Of a DNA stretch of 40,868 bases, positions 2,684 to 18,177 are shown one piece after another. The translations under genes and the position numbers were made by a program. Source of the stretch: a virus; the IMG/VR virus record IMGVR_UViG_3300041411_000220, positions 1-40,868 of that record, one strand, 5' to 3'. Each line of letters begins with the position of its first letter. Positions within the stretch are counted from its first letter, which is position 1. The notes beneath the pieces were generated by a model. It was given only the letters and a program-made list of their open reading frames with translations. It did no database searches and was not told where the DNA came from.

Positions 2684-2720
2684 CGTTACGCGTAACGAAG
2701 CCCCGCCTTGAGCGGGGTTT
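2684..2720 (+). terminator. GTTAC palindrome followed by intercistronic hairpin with T-rich tail
   Basis: CGTTACGCGTAACG at 2684-2697 is one copy of the palindrome dispersed through the window. Directly after it, CCCCGC (2701-2706) pairs with GCGGGG (2712-2717) over a 5-nt loop, followed by TTTCTTATTT. The shape is that of a weak intrinsic terminator or RNA processing and stability hairpin between gpX and gpD. The gpD ribosome-binding site CTGGAG begins about 11 bases after the stem, so the operon probably reads through. Confidence 0.6.
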
Positions 2721-2740
2721 CTTATTTCTGGAGCAGCACC

Positions 2741-3787
2741 ATGAAACCGACTTATCGCATCGTTGCGGATGGCAAGGACATCACGACCTTGATAAGTGAC
2801 CGACTGCTGAGCCTGCGCACCTCAGATAAGCCCGGCATGGAGTCGGACGACTTCGAGCTGCGCATTGATGACCGCGATCAGGCAGTAGCGCTGCCCTCGC
2901 GTGGCGGGGGCGTCGAGATTTATCTGGGCTATGTTGGCCAGGCCCTGACCCGTTTGGGTCGTTATACCGTCGATGAAATCGAGGTGTCCGGGCCGCCCGA
3001 TACAATAGTGATCCGTGGAAAGGCCAGCGACATGCGCGGCAGCGGCAAAACCGTGCGCAGCGGCTCGTGGGAAAACGTGCCCCTGCAACAAATTGTGCGT
3101 GACGTGGCTGCGCGCAATGGCTGGCAGCCGGTATGCCCAGTGCAGACGAAGGTGCCCCGCGTCGACCAGCTCAACGAATCTGACTTTAACTTCATTACGC
3201 GCCTGGCCAAGCAGTACGACTGCACGGCCAAGCTAGCCGACGGCAAACTATTGGTCATGCCTCGCCAGGGTGGGCAGACCGCAAGCGGCAAGAGCCTGGT
3301 CCCGTTGGTTTTGAATCGGTCCGATCTGAGTCGGTACCAGTTCCGCCTCGGCGATCGCAACACGCAAAAGGCTGTGCAAGCCAAGCATCAGGACAAAAAG
3401 ACGGGGGCCCTAAAGGTGGTCCAGTTGGACAACGACGAATTGCCCGACGGATTGCCGGCGGTGCATACCGACCGCCATATCTACCCGAACAAATCTGCCG
3501 CCGAGCAGGCCGCCAAGGCGCGGTTGGCCGCGTTCAACCGCAGCTCTGCAGGTGTGCGCCTGGAAATGGCCGGCCGTACTGATGTATTTGCCGAGCGCTC
3601 AATCATCGTCCAGGGCATCAAGCCTGGGCTCGATGGGGAGTATCTGGCGGATGCTGTGGAGCAGATGTTTACCGCCGATGGCTGGACGACCACCGTTGAA
3701 TGCAACGGCGGCAAAAAGGGCAAGGCCGGCGCCAAGGGCAAGAAAAAGAAGAAAGAAGCGAAGCCGCTCAAGGTGGAGCAGCTGTAA
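2741..3787 (+). CDS. Late control / tail hub protein gpD (P2 family)
   Basis: This belongs to the gpD / T4 gp27-like hub family that links tail tube, baseplate and spike. In P2-like phages the protein is also called 'late control protein D'. Family features include the N-terminal YRIVADGKDITTLI strand, DDFELRIDDRD, GGGVEIYLGY, RGKASDMR and the NFITRLAKQYD segment. The length, 348 aa, suits the family. The C-terminus carries a run of Lys (about residues 325-342). The start follows CTGGAG with suitable spacing. It is the last recognisable tail gene before the lysis cassette. Confidence 0.9.
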   Translation: MKPTYRIVADGKDITTLISDRLLSLRTSDKPGMESDDFELRIDDRDQAVALPSRGGGVEIYLGYVGQALTRLGRYTVDEIEVSGPPDTIVIRGKASDMRGSGKTVRSGSWENVPLQQIVRDVAARNGWQPVCPVQTKVPRVDQLNESDFNFITRLAKQYDCTAKLADGKLLVMPRQGGQTASGKSLVPLVLNRSDLSRYQFRLGDRNTQKAVQAKHQDKKTGALKVVQLDNDELPDGLPAVHTDRHIYPNKSAAEQAAKARLAAFNRSSAGVRLEMAGRTDVFAERSIIVQGIKPGLDGEYLADAVEQMFTADGWTTTVECNGGKKGKAGAKGKKKKKEAKPLKVEQL

Positions 3788-3811
3788 GAGCGCTCTCGCG
3801 CAACAACCGAC

Positions 3812-3834
3812 AAGCCGCCGTGAGCGGTTTTTTT
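3812..3834 (+). terminator. Intercistronic hairpin with T7 tail before endolysin
   Basis: CCGC (3815-3818) and GCGG (3824-3827) form a short stem with a 5-nt loop, followed by seven T. The downstream gene's CTGGAG ribosome-binding site lies right after the T tract. The stem is weak, so partial termination is likely at most. It belongs to the recurrent hairpin-T-run-CTGGA modules described in the findings. Confidence 0.55.
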
Positions 3835-3850
3835 ACGCCTGGAGTTTGAT

Positions 3851-4408
3851 ATGCCGATTACCAAGGAACAGTTACTGCTGATTCTCCCCAATGCCCGCTC
3901 TACAGCGGGCATTTTTGTGCCTGCGCTCAATCGATCCATGGCCCGTTACGACATTGGTTCGCCTGTTCGGCAGGCGGCGTTCCTTGCCCAGGTCGGGCAT
4001 GAGTCCGGCAGCCTGCATTACGTGCGCGAGCTGGGCGGCGATGCTTACCTGTCCAAATACGATACCGGCAAGTTGGCCCAGCGCCTGGGCAACACGCCCG
4101 AGGCTGACGGCGATGGCCAAAAGTATCGCGGCCGTGGCTTGATTCAGATTACCGGCCGCCACAATTACAAGTTGTGCGGCCAGGCGCTGGGCTTGCCCCT
4201 GCTGGAGAACCCCGAGCTGCTGGAGCAGCCCGAGTTCGCGGCGTTGTCGGCTGCCTGGTTCTGGTGGGATCGGGGCTTGAATGAGCTGGCCGACGCGGGC
4301 CTGTTCGATCGCATTACGCGGGTGATCAATGGCGGCACCAACGGCCAGGACGAGCGCCGCGCGCTGTGGGCGAAGGCCAAGGAGGTGCTATGTCCGTCCT
4401 CGACCTGA
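3851..4408 (+). CDS. GH19-type endolysin (chitinase-like lysozyme)
   Basis: At 185 aa it resembles glycoside hydrolase family 19 phage endolysins, which cleave the glycan strands of peptidoglycan. The first catalytic Glu is expected in VGHESG (Glu51) and the second candidate is Glu60 in YVRELGG. The family motif GRGLIQITGRHNY lies near residues 97-109, and INGGTNG near the end lines the active site. No signal peptide is evident, so release should depend on the holin. The start follows CTGGAG. Rz begins inside its 3' end, forming an endolysin-Rz-Rz1 cassette. Confidence 0.9.
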   Translation: MPITKEQLLLILPNARSTAGIFVPALNRSMARYDIGSPVRQAAFLAQVGHESGSLHYVRELGGDAYLSKYDTGKLAQRLGNTPEADGDGQKYRGRGLIQITGRHNYKLCGQALGLPLLENPELLEQPEFAALSAAWFWWDRGLNELADAGLFDRITRVINGGTNGQDERRALWAKAKEVLCPSST

Positions 4409-4953
4409 TTCCTGCGCCCCTTCGCGCCTGGGCGATCGCCCTGGCGCTGCTGTCGATCGCGGTCGTCGCCGCTGGCAGCGCCTGGAAGGTTCAAGACTGG
4501 CGCTATGGGAAGACGCTCGCCGAGCAGGCCCGCTATGCCGCCAGTCAGGCGCAACAGCGCGCCGAAGCCGCCACCTTGGCGCTCAGTCAGGAACAGGCCA
4601 AGCGGGTCGCCCTGGAGGCGCGGTTGGTGGCCAGTGATCAAACCCACTCCCGAGAATTAACCAATGCTCATAAAAACCAGCAACGCCTTTCTGATCGCCT
4701 TGCTACTGCTGATGTGCGGCTGTCAGTCCTACTTGCCGCCACCGACGCCGCTGCAGGTCGTAACGACCTGCCAGCCCCTGCCGGCGCCGTCGGCGTGGTT
4801 CATGGAGGCACAAGAGCCGAACTTGACCCAGCGCATGCTCGAAGAATTGTCAGCATCACCGGGGACGGCGATCGCGGATTGATTGCGCTGAAGGCGTGCC
4901 AGGGCTATGCCCGGGGCGTTTGGGAGGCCAGCCAGCGGCCGGCGGCTCCGTAG
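4390..4953 (+). CDS. Rz-like spanin, inner-membrane subunit
   Basis: This protein has one N-terminal membrane segment (about residues 11-31, AIALALLSIAVVAAGSAW). A long helical, coiled-coil-prone periplasmic domain rich in Ala, Gln and Glu follows. That is the layout of Rz, which joins Rz1 to disrupt the outer membrane at the last step of lysis. The start ATG follows GGAGG at 4381-4385 inside the endolysin end. A second gene, Rz1, is nested in another frame. Rz proteins diverge fast, so the call rests on topology and on the nested lipoprotein. Confidence 0.88.
   Translation: MSVLDLIPAPLRAWAIALALLSIAVVAAGSAWKVQDWRYGKTLAEQARYAASQAQQRAEAATLALSQEQAKRVALEARLVASDQTHSRELTNAHKNQQRLSDRLATADVRLSVLLAATDAAAGRNDLPAPAGAVGVVHGGTRAELDPAHARRIVSITGDGDRGLIALKACQGYARGVWEASQRPAAP
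4664..4882 (+). CDS. Rz1-like spanin, outer-membrane lipoprotein (nested in Rz)
   Basis: The gene encodes 72 aa, entirely inside the Rz gene in another frame. It has a short charged start, a hydrophobic signal segment (ALLLLMCGC) with a lipobox ending at Cys, and then a Pro-rich mature part (LPPPTPL). This is the classic Rz1 arrangement: the lipoprotein is anchored in the outer membrane and pairs with the C-terminus of Rz. It is longer than minimal Rz1 proteins but within the range of embedded versions. Confidence 0.87.
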   Translation: MLIKTSNAFLIALLLLMCGCQSYLPPPTPLQVVTTCQPLPAPSAWFMEAQEPNLTQRMLEELSASPGTAIAD

Positions 4954-5199
4954 CTGACCGGCTGTCGGCTGGTCATAACGTTGAAACCTTTGATCCGGGG
5001 CGGCAATGGGGGCTACTATCGGGCGTCTTTGCTGGCGTCTTACTGGCAGTCGAGCGCAGCGAATTGCCACCGGTGGACCCGGGGGCGAAAAAAATTAAAC
5101 AGTTTAGATGTTAAAACGGAGGCGCCTTTGCTATTCTTTTGGCGTCCGGCGTTAGCCGATAGACAAGAATTTTAAGATTTACAAGGGCTTAGAAAAAAG
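4954..5199. other. Gene-poor spacer between lysis genes and replication leader
   Basis: No convincing gene is present; open frames here lack good starts and family features. The first part is G+C-rich. From about 5086 it becomes A+T-rich with T and A runs (AAAAAAATTAAACAG, TTAAAACGG), which could hold promoters for the downstream leader. No clear -35/-10 pair can be fixed by eye. Confidence 0.5.
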
Positions 5200-5229
5200 A
5201 AAACCCCAGGCCTGCAAGCCTAGGGTTTT
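5200..5229. terminator. Bidirectional terminator-like hairpin upstream of rep
   Basis: The left arm (5200-5211, AAAACCCCAGGC) pairs with GCCTAGGGTTTT (5218-5229) with one mismatch and a 6-nt loop. It is followed by T on the plus strand and, read leftwards, by a T-rich run (the complement of AGAAAAAAGA). It could end the late tail/lysis operon. It could also end an antisense transcript running leftwards from the rep leader (inference). Confidence 0.65.
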
Positions 5230-5246
5230 CGGTGATCGTTCCGAAC

Positions 5247-5319
5247 AAACTCTGGAAGACCGCGACAAGGTCAGAGTTTAGTGGACGGTCCCCTTCGAAG
5301 CAAGCCCATTGCTTAGGGG
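5247..5319 (+). promoter_or_regulatory. Structured rep leader: two hairpins, second one sequesters the ribosome-binding site
   Basis: Hairpin A: AAACTCT (5247-5253) plus GACC (5258-5261) pair with GGTC (5269-5272) plus AGAGTTT (5273-5279), around the loop GCGACAA. Hairpin B: CCCCT (5290-5294) plus AAGCAA (5298-5303) pair with TTGCTT (5309-5314) plus AGGGG (5315-5319), around the loop GCCCA. AGGGGA at 5315-5320 is the Shine-Dalgarno of the Rep gene (ATG 5328), so hairpin B buries it. Such leaders in plasmids such as IncFII and IncI are copy-number control points, often with an antisense RNA. That comparison is by design, not by sequence. Confidence 0.6.
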
Positions 5320-5327
5320 AAAGCAGC

Positions 5328-6356
5328 ATGTCCGCCATGATGGCCGAGGACAGCCCGCAGGCTTTAGTCTGGGGCCGTTCAACTTACCCGTACCCGGGGC
5401 TCTACCTGGGGACGGGGAACCGCTGTGGGCACGACCCACTGACGCTGGCCGTCGACCGGCTGAACCTGCACGAGCCGAGCGGTGGTAACTGGCCGAAGTT
5501 GATTCAGGTCGGTATCGACCGTATTCAGGCCTATTTCAAGCAGGCTGACGCCTTGCCACCCCTGGCGCATCTTTCCAAGAAGCAGAATCAAGACGGCTCC
5601 ATGCGACAAAACCGCAGCGAGGCTCGCGAGGGGCACGCCCTGGTACTGTCGGTGATCTTTACTTACCTCGACTTGAAGTCGTTGCGGGTGGGCTACTACA
5701 CCAGCACCGGCGCCTTCGTCAGTATTTCCTTTTTGGAAATTGCCCGGCGTTGCGACATGACCTGCCAGGTCAAGGTGCGCGACGATGCTGGCCAAGTCGT
5801 TGCCGGTAAGTTCAAAGAGGTGCCGACCTCGCGGTTCTGGCGCACGGTGCGCGACCTCAAGAAAGCCGGGGCCATTAGCGTTTTCGAACAGTACGAGGAA
5901 AAGGACGCCGGCAAACGCGCCCTGACCGCGATCAAAGCCTTTAGCGCGAAATTCCTGCAGCTTATCGCCGGTTGGACCGCCAAGCGGGTCGAGAGCGCGC
6001 GCAAGCGGGCGCACCAGCGAGTCGGCGGCTTCCTGCTGGGCGCGATTGACGCGGGTATTGAGAACGTCAACCAGCGCAAACAGTTGGTCAAAGAGATTCA
6101 GTCAGCCAACGTCAAGCGCGAGCTGTTCGGCGCCCCGATCGCCAAGAATCGCGCCCCCAGCATTGGCAGCGCGCGGGAGTCCGTCGAGGCGGCGCTGAAG
6201 CAGGAATACGCCGAGCACGAAGCCAAGGTGCTGGCCAGCATCAAGGCCGCCCTGGGCCGTCCGCCGCGCGGAATGGAGCAACTGAAGTTGCAAGCCCAGC
6301 ACGGCTGGATCAAGTACGACGACTTTGTGCGTCGACGACTCGACGGCGGCAGCTAG
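5328..6356 (+). CDS. Putative plasmid-type replication initiator (Rep)
   Basis: I read this 342-aa protein as a plasmid-style Rep. Its central part (about residues 115-225) looks like the paired winged-helix region of theta-replication initiators: RSEAREGHALVLSVIFTYLD, VSISFLEIARRCDM and SRFWRTVRDLKKAGAIS. A basic helical region follows (TAKRVESARKRAHQRVGG). The start at 5328 is preceded by AGGGGA with 7-nt spacing; an earlier in-frame start at 5232 would put the hairpins inside the gene. Context supports Rep: structured leader upstream, regularly spaced direct repeats downstream, and par and hic genes on the same molecule. No specific Rep family is claimed, and a phage replication protein is the alternative. 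Confidence 0.55.
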   Translation: MSAMMAEDSPQALVWGRSTYPYPGLYLGTGNRCGHDPLTLAVDRLNLHEPSGGNWPKLIQVGIDRIQAYFKQADALPPLAHLSKKQNQDGSMRQNRSEAREGHALVLSVIFTYLDLKSLRVGYYTSTGAFVSISFLEIARRCDMTCQVKVRDDAGQVVAGKFKEVPTSRFWRTVRDLKKAGAISVFEQYEEKDAGKRALTAIKAFSAKFLQLIAGWTAKRVESARKRAHQRVGGFLLGAIDAGIENVNQRKQLVKEIQSANVKRELFGAPIAKNRAPSIGSARESVEAALKQEYAEHEAKVLASIKAALGRPPRGMEQLKLQAQHGWIKYDDFVRRRLDGGS

Positions 6357-10071: not shown

Positions 10072-10254
10072 ATGAAGTGCAGCGAGTTTCGGCGGTGGTT
10101 GTTGGCCCAAGGCGTGGAGTTCAAGAGCGCCAAGGGCAGCCACTTCAAGGTTTACTTGGATGGCAAGTCAACCGTCTTTGCGGACCACGGCAGCAAGGAA
10201 ATGCACGAAGGGTTACGCAAAACCATCATCAAACAGCTGGGCCTCAAGGATTGA
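10072..10254 (+). CDS. hicA: HicA-type mRNA interferase toxin
   Basis: At 60 aa it is the usual HicA length. It has the double-stranded-RNA-binding-like fold pattern, with the catalytic His in KGSHFKVY (His24), a following strand, and the C-terminal helix GLRKTIIKQLGL. HicA toxins cleave mRNA when the antitoxin is lost, which stabilises plasmids and prophages. The ATG follows ACAGGACGACAGCA, a moderate ribosome-binding site. hicB follows 29 bp downstream. Confidence 0.92.
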   Translation: MKCSEFRRWLLAQGVEFKSAKGSHFKVYLDGKSTVFADHGSKEMHEGLRKTIIKQLGLKD

Positions 10255-10283
10255 GGCTTGGCTGTACCCTTGAGAGGTGAGCC

Positions 10284-10706
10284 ATGTACCAATACCCGCT
10301 CGAACTGCACACCGAATCGACCGGCGTCTGGTTGTCGTGCCCGGACATCCCCGAAATGAACGCCTCCGGCGACACCCTGGCCGAAGCCTTTGCCGAAGCC
10401 CTAAACGGTTTTGATTCGGCCCTGTCGCTGTACGTCGAGCAGCGCCGCAAGATTCCGGCCGCCTCGGCGGCGCGTGATCCGTCGATGGTCCTGCACTTGC
10501 CGGCGTTGACCGTGGCCAAGGTCATGTTGTGGAACGCCATGTGCGACGAAGGCGTGGGCCGCTCCGAACTGGCACGCCGCCTGGGCTGTTCGCGCCAAGC
10601 GGTAGACCGCCTGGTCGACTTCCTACACAGCTCGAAAATCGAGCAGGTCGAGCGCGCCTTGGGCTTGTTGGGCCGTCGGTTGTCCTTGGTGCTGGAAGCG
10701 GCCTGA
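10284..10706 (+). CDS. hicB: HicB-type antitoxin with C-terminal HTH
   Basis: The 140-aa product has an N-terminal partial RNase H-like HicB domain (YPLELHTESTGVWLSCPDIPEMNASGDT, shown here only to mark the motif region, residues 4-31), followed by LAEAFAEALNGFDSAL. A C-terminal helix-turn-helix (GRSELARRLGCSRQAVDRLV, about residues 94-113) follows. HicB binds and neutralises HicA and represses the operon. It sits directly after hicA under the triple-dyad operator. The typical two-domain length supports an intact antitoxin. Confidence 0.92.
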   Translation: MYQYPLELHTESTGVWLSCPDIPEMNASGDTLAEAFAEALNGFDSALSLYVEQRRKIPAASAARDPSMVLHLPALTVAKVMLWNAMCDEGVGRSELARRLGCSRQAVDRLVDFLHSSKIEQVERALGLLGRRLSLVLEAA

Positions 10707-10742: not shown

Positions 10743-10994
10743 ATGACCGACGTAGACGAAAAATCCCGCCGCCTGGCGGACTGGCAGACCCTGTACAACG
10801 ACCGCGCGGCCACCGGGCGTGACCCCGAGGGTCAGCGTGCGACGCTGGTGGTGCTAGCTGAAACCCTGCACGCCCTGGGCGTGATTGAGGTCGACGATCT
10901 GGCCGAGCTGCTGGAGCAGGCCGACGCCGCATATGCCTGGGGCGTTGAGGCGCAGTTGACCGATGAACTCAACCGCCCCGAGATTGATGTATGA
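10743..10994 (+). CDS. Small acidic hypothetical protein
   Basis: The product is 83 aa, helical and acidic, with no recognised domain. The start at 10743 follows a strong AAAGGAGG. A hybrid palindrome, GTTACCCGTCAC (10715-10726), lies just before the ribosome-binding site. It overlaps the next gene by the 4-bp ATGA type of junction (10991-10994), so the two are coupled. Acidic small proteins in this position of mobile elements are sometimes DNA mimics, but nothing in the sequence fixes that. Confidence 0.6.
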   Translation: MTDVDEKSRRLADWQTLYNDRAATGRDPEGQRATLVVLAETLHALGVIEVDDLAELLEQADAAYAWGVEAQLTDELNRPEIDV

Positions 10995-11203
10995 CCCCGG
11001 AGCAGTTGGCCGTTTACGCTGAAGTCAGCGAGGCCCTGGACGAAGAGGGTTACGGCGATCTGTTGACCGGCCAGGCGATCGACGTGCGCGACGCTGTGGC
11101 GCAAATGGAGCTGGATGCGGTGCAGATGCTCGCCCGGGCGCTGCGCCTGCAAAGCCTGCTGGCCGAGGTTGATCGCGCGGCCGCGAAGGCGCTCGACGAC
11201 TAG
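10991..11203 (+). CDS. Small hypothetical protein coupled to the preceding gene
   Basis: The product is 70 aa, helical and acidic (AVYAEVSEALDEEGYGDLL; LDAVQMLARALRLQSLLAEV). It starts within the stop of the previous gene (ATGA overlap), so translation is coupled and the two products may work together. It converges on the reverse-strand SOS-box gene, with the stop codons overlapping by 4 bp (11200-11203). Function unknown. Confidence 0.58.
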   Translation: MTPEQLAVYAEVSEALDEEGYGDLLTGQAIDVRDAVAQMELDAVQMLARALRLQSLLAEVDRAAAKALDD

Positions 11204-11451
11204 AAAGCCAGCCGCTCGCGCTCGGTGTCGAGCAGTTTCTGGAGCAGGTGCAGGGCCGTCAAATTGCCGCCCACGGTGCCGCGCCAGGCCTGATGGATCG
11301 TTTTATATAGGTGGTCGACTTCCGCGATCACTTCGCGCGAGCGCACAACCTCAAGCACCAAGCGCTGTATGGCGGGATCGGGGTGTTTTCTCCAGAGGGT
11401 GCGCAATTCGTCCAGCGTCGCCGGCCGGAATGGCGGTAAGTCGCGGGCCAT
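11200..11451 (-). CDS. Putative SOS-controlled small protein (candidate antirepressor or induction factor)
   Basis: The product is 83 aa, mostly helical with many charged residues (LDELRTLWRKHPDPAIQRLV; HLLQKLLDTERERLAF), and has no known domain that I recognise. It is the only clear reverse-strand gene between 5 and 15 kb. A near-perfect LexA box (CTGT-ATATATAC-ACAG, 11468-11483) lies 17-32 bp before its ATG, so it should be induced by DNA damage. Because the element's repressor lacks the catalytic Lys, an SOS-made antirepressor, as phage 186 makes with Tum, is an attractive role. That is inference. The ribosome-binding site is weak. Confidence 0.62.
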   Translation of the reverse strand: MARDLPPFRPATLDELRTLWRKHPDPAIQRLVLEVVRSREVIAEVDHLYKTIHQAWRGTVGGNLTALHLLQKLLDTERERLAF

Positions 11452-11467
11452 GATTCATGCTCGATAG

Positions 11468-11483
11468 CTGTATATATACACAG
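11468..11483 (-). promoter_or_regulatory. LexA-type SOS box
   Basis: CTGT, eight A/T-rich bases (ATATATAC), ACAG, flanked by TA on the right, fits the gammaproteobacterial LexA consensus CTGT-N8-ACAG with an alternating TA core. It sits directly upstream of the reverse-strand gene ending at 11451. A good -35/-10 pair could not be fixed; TATATA inside the box may serve as the -10. Confidence 0.75.
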
Positions 11484-11543
11484 TATGAGGGCGGGCGCTT
11501 TTGATGGCTACAGCCGTTCATGCCCTCGGAGATTATCCGCCGC

Positions 11544-11595
11544 TTGACCTGATAGGCACATGTGCCTATCCTCCTGCATTAGGCACATGTGCCTA
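11544..11595 (+). promoter_or_regulatory. Promoter with two 16-18 bp dyad operators
   Basis: ATAGGCACATGTGCCTAT (11552-11569) and TAGGCACATGTGCCTA (11580-11595) are perfect palindromes, 28 bp apart start to start. TTGACC (11544-11549) and TATCCT (11567-11572) form a promoter with a 17-bp spacer that the first dyad fills. The second dyad lies over the start of transcription. This predicts tight repression, probably by the product of the next gene (11622). Confidence 0.78.
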
Positions 11596-11621: not shown

Positions 11622-11858
11622 ATGGACAACCGCACCCGATACCTTGAGCTGTTGAAAACCCACGATATCACTCAGGCCTACAGCGCCGTATTAATCACTG
11701 CGGTCACCCTGCGCCCTTGTTCTGCGCGCACCGTGCGGTCGTGGTTGAATGATCCGGATAAGCCCAGTACCCGGCCGTGTCCGGCGTGGGCCGTCGAGGC
11801 GCTGGAGAAGGGCATAGGTTATATGCAACGGGCCGTGGCCCGTCGGCAGGAGGGATAA
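11622..11858 (+). CDS. Small putative DNA-binding protein, probably autoregulated
   Basis: The product is 78 aa. The middle holds a helix-turn-helix-like stretch (TAVTLRPCSARTVRSWLNDPD, about residues 26-46, in which ARTVRSWL would be the recognition helix), similar to small Cro-like or transposase-type regulators. It lies behind a promoter bearing two perfect dyads, the usual setting for autoregulation. It precedes the 11863 gene by 4 bp and probably heads the operon to 12945. Confidence 0.62.
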   Translation: MDNRTRYLELLKTHDITQAYSAVLITAVTLRPCSARTVRSWLNDPDKPSTRPCPAWAVEALEKGIGYMQRAVARRQEG

Positions 11859-16333: not shown

Positions 16334-16422
16334 GCCGAATTAGCGAATTAGCTAAGAACATAGAAAGTATAACCCCAGGGGATGGAATGGCAAGCGAATT
16401 AGCAATTTAGCGAATTAGCTAA
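16334..16422 (-). promoter_or_regulatory. parA promoter flanked by TTAGCTAA-type repeats
   Basis: On the reverse strand, -35 TTGCCA (plus 16388-16393) and -10 TATACT (plus 16366-16371) are 16 bp apart. Repeat blocks flank the promoter: 16394-16422 upstream (four tandem ~8-bp units) and 16334-16355 between the -10 and the parA start (GAATTAGC, GAATTAGC, TAA). Tandem 7-8 bp repeats are how ribbon-helix-helix partition proteins usually bind, and they often serve as both centromere and operator. Confidence 0.72.
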
Positions 16423-16875
16423 CGCCAAGGGTGTGGCAGGTAGGTGGAAGCTCTGAGCCAAGAAAGCGTGTTCCTGTTGGCCGCGTGGGCCATTGGCTGT
16501 TTTGCTGATGGTGCTGCGGGCCAGTCTGGAAGAGGGTGTGGTGCGGCTGTTGCGCCGGGTTTGGTTGCGATTGGCATCGTCGGCGTGTTCGGTCGCGCAC
16601 AGAACGGAAAGGAGCAGGCACAGGGCCCGGGGTATGAGCACGCCCAGGGTGAAAGCGCGAGCAATCATATGGGGGTGCGTCTTGGCGCCGAGCTTGGCCT
16701 TAATGTTGCGCTCAAGCAGGCGAAAGCCGGTGGTGTCGACGCCAAGGAGCGAGCCGATGGTATTGGGGGTATCGCCATCGGCCAAGCCGACCAGCACGCG
16801 TAGCTCGGTGTTAGACAGCGCCTGTCCGGGCCGCCCAATCACGTCTTCGCCATGAATGTCCATTTCTGCGTACAT
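16399..16875 (-). CDS. LuxR-type helix-turn-helix regulator
   Basis: The product is 158 aa. Residues ~19-70 form a GerE/LuxR-type helix-turn-helix: LSNTELRVLVGLADGDTPNT, IGSLLGVDTTGF, and LLERNIKAKLGAKTHPHMIARAF. A hydrophobic segment follows (LGVLIPRALCLLLSVL), then a low-complexity polar tail that may be non-conserved. No sensor domain is present. Similar proteins are frequent in Pseudomonas prophages and plasmids. The start is preceded by AAGGAAA. The 3' end overlaps the repeat block upstream of parA. Targets unknown. Confidence 0.72.
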   Translation of the reverse strand: MYAEMDIHGEDVIGRPGQALSNTELRVLVGLADGDTPNTIGSLLGVDTTGFRLLERNIKAKLGAKTHPHMIARAFTLGVLIPRALCLLLSVLCATEHADDANRNQTRRNSRTTPSSRLARSTISKTANGPRGQQEHAFLAQSFHLPATPLALANSLNC

Positions 16876-16900
16876 CGTGTGTTTCCTTACCCCGGGCTGA

Positions 16901-17194
16901 TTAGGCGGCTTTGGCGGCTGTGAGTTGACCGGCGATATTGGCCATCTGTAACAGGCCTTCGCGAAGCTCTGCGGCCAAGCTGGCGATCAAGTCCAGGGCC
17001 TCGCCGTGATCGCCCGTATCAATTGCGCGCATTGCAAGCGCCTCAATTCCGCCGGCAGCGGCTGCCTTTCGGTTCATGGTGATGCAGATAAGCCGTTGGG
17101 TGTCTTCGGTGAATTCTGTGAAAAGCATAAAGCCGCTGCCCAGGGTGAGGGCGGTTGCGGTGGCATCGAGTGTGGTTAAGAGTCCTGGCGTCAT
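16901..17194 (-). CDS. Hypothetical protein cotranscribed with the LuxR-type gene
   Basis: The product is 97 aa. It begins with a hydrophobic, flexible part (LLTTLDATATALTLGSGFML), then FTEFTEDTQRLICITMNRK, and ends in helices rich in Ala and Leu (ALDLIASLAAELREGLLQM). Family not recognised. It lies 25 bp before the LuxR-type gene and downstream of a repressor-type operator (17223-17239), so it probably heads the early leftward operon. Confidence 0.58.
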   Translation of the reverse strand: MTPGLLTTLDATATALTLGSGFMLFTEFTEDTQRLICITMNRKAAAAGGIEALAMRAIDTGDHGEALDLIASLAAELREGLLQMANIAGQLTAAKAA

Positions 17195-17517: not shown

Positions 17518-18177
17518 TTAGCGTAAATGCGTGATCATGCGGACTCGGCCAAGAATGCGGAGTGCTGCCAGCTCTTCAGGGGTAAGAGGTTGGTTTGGGT
17601 AGCGCTCGGACTGCTGCGCCTGGATGACGAAGTCGCCTTGTAGGGTTTGGCGAATCCAGCGCAGCCAGAGCCGTCCGTTGACCATGATGGCAAACATGTC
17701 GTCACGGGTAACGGCGGTTTCGCTAAGGTCGATCAGGGCCAAGTCGTCCTCTTCGATGATGCCTGACATGCTGTCATCCGGAGCGGCGACGAGGAGAATC
17801 TTTTCCTTGTCGAGTTTGCAGGCCTCTAGAAAGCTCAGGTGAAAGGCGAGGGCGTTTTCCCCCAGGTCAACCAGTCCCTGAGTGGTAGCAATAGCCGAGG
17901 TCGCCGGTACCGCGTAATTACGCGTCTCAGGCGATGTGCCGTCGTCGTCGGTCAGGCCGGACAGATAAGCCGCCGGTTTGCCAAACAAGGCTCCCAAATT
18001 CACCAGCATGTCGAGCGGGGGAATATTAATCGCTAGTTCCCAGTTACCGTAACGGGACTGAACGAAGGGTTTGCCCGTGATTTTGGACAGCTCGGCGGCA
18101 GTTTGGGCAAAGGTCCAGCCTTTTTCCGTGCGGCAGGCCTTAAGGCGGCGGCCGATTTTGTCTTTAAGGTCAAGCAT
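17518..18177 (-). CDS. S24/LexA-fold phage repressor lacking the catalytic Lys
   Basis: The product is 219 aa. The N-terminus is an XRE-type helix-turn-helix (residues ~5-65; FAQTAAELSKITG and SRYGNWELAI). The C-terminal S24 domain has the Ser nucleophile in PDDSMSG (Ser136). The position 37 residues on, the Ser-to-Lys distance in LexA, is Arg173 (GRLWLRW). So the fold is kept but self-cleavage is doubtful. It is divergent from the forward early genes, with operators at 17223 and 18212. It should hold the lysogenic state. A dispersed palindrome copy (18043-18053) lies in the gene. Confidence 0.85.
   Translation of the reverse strand: MLDLKDKIGRRLKACRTEKGWTFAQTAAELSKITGKPFVQSRYGNWELAINIPPLDMLVNLGALFGKPAAYLSGLTDDDGTSPETRNYAVPATSAIATTQGLVDLGENALAFHLSFLEACKLDKEKILLVAAPDDSMSGIIEEDDLALIDLSETAVTRDDMFAIMVNGRLWLRWIRQTLQGDFVIQAQQSERYPNQPLTPEELAALRILGRVRMITHLR

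Follow-up and report, generated by a model that had tools for sequence, protein, structure and literature searches.

The 83-aa gene at positions 11200-11451 (reverse strand) and the LexA (SOS) box in front of it probably constitute a LexA-controlled mobile accessory cassette, with a product directed at a conserved target in the host. The window, i.e. the whole 40.9-kb stretch of DNA analyzed here, is a virus record that carries P2-like tail genes, an endolysin gene, a RepA-like gene, ParA, an integrase and a CI-like repressor, and it is probably a phage or phage-plasmid of Pseudomonas. Phages and plasmids alike carry members of the uncharacterised SOS-boxed family to which the gene belongs.

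The sequence at 11468-11483, CTGTATATATACACAG, was recognized by a site scan of the window as a LexA box with a single mismatch to the ideal palindrome CTGTATATATATACAG, and only 0.01 such sites are expected by chance according to shuffled windows. It is the sole CTGT-N8-ACAG and the only LexA-like box in the window, and the 83-aa gene lies directly behind it: counted back from the start of the ATG (11451), the box extends from 17 to 32 bp upstream. The coordinates and the spacing given for this near-perfect box in an earlier note on the same DNA were both confirmed. The position of the box and its palindromic character are conserved in front of the homologues: an exact CTG-N10-CAG is present in 37 of 42 core members of the family, about 9-21 nt from the start as drawn (several starts, and hence these distances, are uncertain by one to three codons), compared with 88 of 4924 control ORFs (1.8%). 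The enrichment corresponds to a Fisher p of about 1e-56, a value that overstates the independence of the members because they are related; nevertheless, the breadth of divergence among them makes chance untenable as an explanation of the link between box and gene. Across the homologues the inner bases of the box vary, while the outer triplets and the palindrome are retained. Even the two homologues on Burkholderiales plasmids, with about 44% identity, keep the box, which is near-perfect in Paraburkholderia (CTGTATATGCATACAG) and perfect in Caballeronia (CTGTATATATATACAG). Deviating copies also occur. At three loci (L024, L034 and L079) a single outer base is altered, leaving a near-box, the box is degenerate in L038, in the sister phage G412 and in some plasmid copies, and in L076 a transposon, the Tn3-like element ISPsy42, is inserted immediately upstream of the gene. 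The conservation of the operator thus bears out, at the level of sequence, the idea of a small phage gene behind a LexA switch, and strongly supports control of the 83-aa gene by LexA.

The gene itself, which stands alone on the reverse strand between the forward genes 10991-11203 and 11622-11858, is a real one. It has homologues of 40-82% identity in 89 plasmid records (85 of them from Pseudomonas), in 15 of 399 Pseudomonas genomes (about ten copies being full-length or nearly so) and in 25 IMG/VR contigs, although the annotated phage collection searched contained no member. Pairwise dN/dS values within the family range from 0.07 to 0.34, indicating purifying selection. A chance palindrome or an unused ORF, for which nothing but the small size of the gene speaks, is already refuted by the conserved box and by the purifying selection across phages and plasmids, and its probability is negligible.

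The members share the motif LPxFxPxTxxELRxIWxxHPDPxxRRLxLEVxRYR...HQAWR..GGxLxALhxL...ERxRL. The AlphaFold2 model of the 83-aa protein consists of three helices (residues 13-22, 26-58 and 62-81; mean pLDDT 83, pTM 0.58), so the family is predicted to be an unnamed, all-alpha one. Searches of Pfam, NCBIfam, the defence library PADLOC and PDB sequences gave no significant match, and the single weak PHROG match (E 4e-4, function not named) covers the first 40 residues. Foldseek searches of PDB and BFVD returned nothing at E below 1, an all-helical model being of limited use for this purpose. In the literature searched, no mention of the protein accessions of family members was found.

The family is easy to miss because its genes are often unannotated or misannotated. 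In CP048608 (L022:6082-6261) the gene is shortened and annotated as an ATP-binding protein, in NZ_CP070504 (L023:6013-6225) the opposite strand is annotated instead, and at this locus many plasmid records of P. aeruginosa show no annotated gene. A few copies are disturbed: L001 appears decayed, with a 7-nt deletion near the start, and L011 has an internal stop. In the metagenome contig L030 (6435-7589) the family frame continues in frame into a tyrosine integrase, a configuration that could reflect a genuine fusion or have arisen by deletion.

On one side, the 83-aa gene converges with a 70-aa gene (10991-11203, forward strand) that lies outside the cassette; the stop codons of the two genes overlap, and the 70-aa protein showed no family match. 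Further away, at 10075-10706, lies a pair of genes that are HicA-like (by eye) and HicB-like (weak Pfam match), and this pair is kept in G412, G424 and G429. On the other side is a 78-aa gene (11622-11858, forward strand), possibly encoding a small regulator, with 79-90% identity to its counterparts in G424, G428 and G430. It is preceded by twin perfect 16-bp palindromes, TAGGCACATGTGCCTA, at 11553-11568 and 11580-11595. The pair is conserved ahead of the 78-aa homologue in G428, with one base changed in G430 and in an altered form in G424. In G428 and G430 the 78-aa gene and the twin palindromes occur without the 83-aa gene, and thus mark an empty site. Since the palindromes accompany the 78-aa gene in the relatives, they are likely operators of this gene, to judge from their distribution, and were set aside as a second control site of the 83-aa gene.

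The carriers of the family include P2-like and other Pseudomonas prophages, phage-plasmids of about 80 kb, large plasmids and conjugative plasmids. In the P2-like prophages the gene adjoins the portal gene, and the carriers of about 80 kb, such as CP048608, possess tail and endolysin genes. Among the conjugative carriers, pNY3045-NR of P. aeruginosa has VirB genes, MobC and anti-CRISPRs, and its annotation lists no phage genes. Anti-CRISPR genes found alongside a family gene on a conjugative plasmid are acrF, acrF3 and acrE1 (L062:5753-6736). Four carrier plasmids scored above the cut-off for VirB4 and gave no match to the terminase marker phrog_2; this negative is weak on its own because phrog_2 also misses the terminase of the window itself. 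phrog_2 replaced the Pfam large-terminase model PF03354, which matched none of the carriers and proved unsuitable as a marker. S24 domains were detected in just 10 of 29 carrier records, two of the matches being UmuD-like, and the conjugative VirB4 plasmids gave no S24 repressor match. The repressors that are present are mutually unrelated, and several retain both the Ser and the Lys and are apparently cleavable. On the 89-kb phage contig L035 (9992-10585), a gene for a UmuD-like S24 protein is convergent with the family gene, one base apart. The family tree requires at least four switches between phages and plasmids, with modest branch support, and the copy in the window is closer to copies on phages of about 80 kb than to the copy at the same site in the sister phage G412. 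Taken together, the sequence comparisons strongly support the view that box and gene form a mobile cassette among Pseudomonas phages, phage-plasmids and conjugative plasmids.

The earlier note had proposed a different role, namely that the 83-aa protein is an induction switch, either Tum-like or a new antirepressor, for a phage whose own repressor can not cleave itself. The premise is right for the whole repressor clade. The 219-aa CI-like repressor of the S24 fold (17518-18177, reverse strand; Pfam PF00717, E 8e-8; PHROG transcriptional repressor, E 2e-18) retains the catalytic Ser but has Arg in place of the catalytic Lys (LWLRWI), and the same holds for all 13 clade members compared, i.e. 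the window and 12 relatives, suggesting that none of them self-cleaves. Such a repressor resides in the window and is lacking from many other carriers of the 83-aa family. A LexA-controlled antirepressor that inactivates the non-cleavable repressor in the manner of Tum in phage 186, and so makes the prophage SOS-inducible, would also fit the small size of the protein, its possession of the only LexA box in the window, and the portal-side position in P2-like prophages, near the cos end; tum of phage 186 likewise lies near the cos end. However, the gene does not co-occur with a cognate repressor. Both the 83-aa gene and a good LexA box are missing from G428-G432, the five phages whose repressors come closest to that of the window (57-72% identity); their best box scores are 7-13 versus 22.7 in the window, with G429 being a fragment and the scan covering the first 40 kb of G430 and of G432. 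The gene does occur on conjugative plasmids that lack a phage repressor, as well as on phages whose repressors are unrelated and apparently cleavable. No kinship to known antirepressors or DinI was detected in PHROG or Pfam, a weak test since antirepressors diverge. The proposed switch function is therefore unsupported, and we regard it as quite unlikely, although the 83-aa protein could possibly affect this repressor as well.

Moreover, a different LexA-boxed family accompanies this repressor clade. The family, here called s66, comprises distinct small proteins of 60-78 aa with the motif NPLI....TI..I..Y..WLC...D...HPG, and it occurs with more distant members of the non-cleavable repressor clade. 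In 12 of 12 cases a LexA box lies 8-72 nt upstream of its gene. The carriers are the phages G412, G424-G427, VPHZ6, H905, PhiPS02, K334, PARCL1pr and two Edwardsiella and Aeromonas plasmids; PARCL1pr was left out when the s66 profile was built and was then found by that profile. The loci include L067:4515-4715 (reverse), L099:1185-1385 (forward), L082:16553-16786 (reverse), L083:17261-17494 (forward) and L064:29433-29669 (reverse), among others. The s66 gene usually follows directly after tail protein D, and in some cases the tail fibre; in the sister phages G412 and G424 it lies with its box between D and RepA. In G424, s66 coexists with a homologue of the 83-aa gene, and a separate box precedes each of them. 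Lysogens of the s66 carrier PhiPS02 release phage after mitomycin C (PMC12724201). We infer that s66 is a strong antirepressor candidate, better than the 83-aa protein, and it offers a concrete candidate for the route by which phages with this non-cleavable repressor become SOS-inducible. The 83-aa family is thereby set apart from the repressor-linked, LexA-boxed s66.

No s66 was found in the window or in G428-G432. One could suppose that s66 was lost in the ancestor of the window and that the 83-aa gene was taken up in its place as an antirepressor, with a role different from that in the other carriers, which would suit a window whose one LexA box belongs to the 83-aa gene. Nevertheless, this is very improbable. 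The corresponding junction of the window (2708-6356, forward strand) consists of tail protein D, endolysin, a spanin-like gene and the RepA-like gene, and G428 and G430 keep the same arrangement with its endolysin and spanin genes, but have neither s66, the 83-aa gene nor a LexA box. Therefore, a LexA-controlled trigger seems to be dispensable in this branch. In addition, the motifs of the 83-aa protein are conserved between the copy in the window and those on plasmids. Between the repressor and ParA (16399-17194), the window encodes a 158-aa sigma/LuxR-like protein and a 97-aa orphan, both conserved in the nearest relatives without any LexA box; this region is possibly an SOS-independent input for induction.

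The distribution argues for an accessory gene, and probably not a wake-up switch of the phage, because the unit rides on unrelated phages as well as on conjugative plasmids free of repressors. In the favoured reading, box and 83-aa gene would move between elements as a one-gene SOS cassette, LexA would keep the gene off until DNA damage, and self-cleavage of LexA upon damage would then allow the small, basic, all-helical protein to be made. Elements that have no repressor, replication or packaging system in common carry very similar proteins of this family, and for this reason a conserved protein of the host is the most likely target, rather than the phage repressor. The most likely use would be to tune the host damage response to the benefit of the element, as DinI, PsiB and P1 Hot do; the processes concerned could be the activity of RecA or LexA, a polymerase, division, or damage-triggered lysis by other prophages or pyocins. 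On the other hand, sequence and fold searches name no target, the pattern in the window fits an antirepressor, and degenerate boxes occur. More tentatively, the proteins may represent a new family of SOS-induced host modulators that spreads as a cassette through Pseudomonas phages and conjugative plasmids and reshapes the damage response of the host. Binding to RecA, LexA or the division machinery would be one conceivable mechanism, and restraint of damage-triggered lysis by other prophages and pyocins another.

A damage-induced superinfection-exclusion or defence gene, guarding the carrier cell against other phages or against lysis by induced prophages or pyocins, would benefit plasmids and phages alike, and the copies in P2-like prophages do lie in a moron region together with other cargo, including a D12 DNA methylase and genes of unknown function. 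Such a role is unlikely, however, in view of the LexA control, which is unusual for a constitutive exclusion gene, and of the absence of a PADLOC match. DNA-damaging antibiotics turn on LexA-controlled genes, and the occurrence of one gene in prophages and in conjugative plasmids of P. aeruginosa suggests that different mobile elements share one answer to the host SOS response.

LexA-controlled antirepressors of prophages have been described, such as Tum of phage 186, AntC of N15, and GfoA and GftA of the Gifsy phages (PMC3121763). Like these, the 83-aa product is a small protein whose gene lies outside the immunity region and directly follows a LexA box, and the resident repressor lacks the self-cleavage lysine. 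Unlike them, the family is tied to no repressor, is found on conjugative plasmids and lacks a DinI-like part, and the repressor clade of the window is linked to the unrelated s66 instead. The TF-smORF lysis modules of polylysogens are SOS-independent and require an adjacent transcription factor (PMC10432266). The 83-aa protein resembles them as a small orphan protein encoded divergently from a possible small regulator gene, but its LexA box is conserved, and the 78-aa gene and palindromes of G428 and G430 are not accompanied by the 83-aa gene. In Pseudomonas putida, the LexA-controlled prophage gene PP3901 is reportedly needed to induce other prophage genes (PMC4595014). Despite this similarity in control, PP3901 is probably not a family member, because the published primer ending just before it has no CAG half-site at the position of the box. 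The only hit of a primer search, located in one genome, was to an unrelated gene that looks ppx/gppA-like by eye.

P1 Hot, a homologue of the theta subunit of Pol III, is a LexA-controlled small helical protein on a phage-plasmid that serves a host process. DinI and PsiB are small SOS-tuning proteins of phages and conjugative plasmids, and DinI is LexA-controlled. Kinship to Hot or theta was rejected, as there was no PDB-chain profile match at E up to 1 and no Foldseek match (model pTM 0.58), and so was kinship to DinI or PsiB, with no match in Pfam, PDB sequences or Foldseek folds. In its general features, the 83-aa family resembles Hot as a LexA-controlled small helical protein on phage-plasmids, and DinI and PsiB as a small protein carried by phages and conjugative plasmids.
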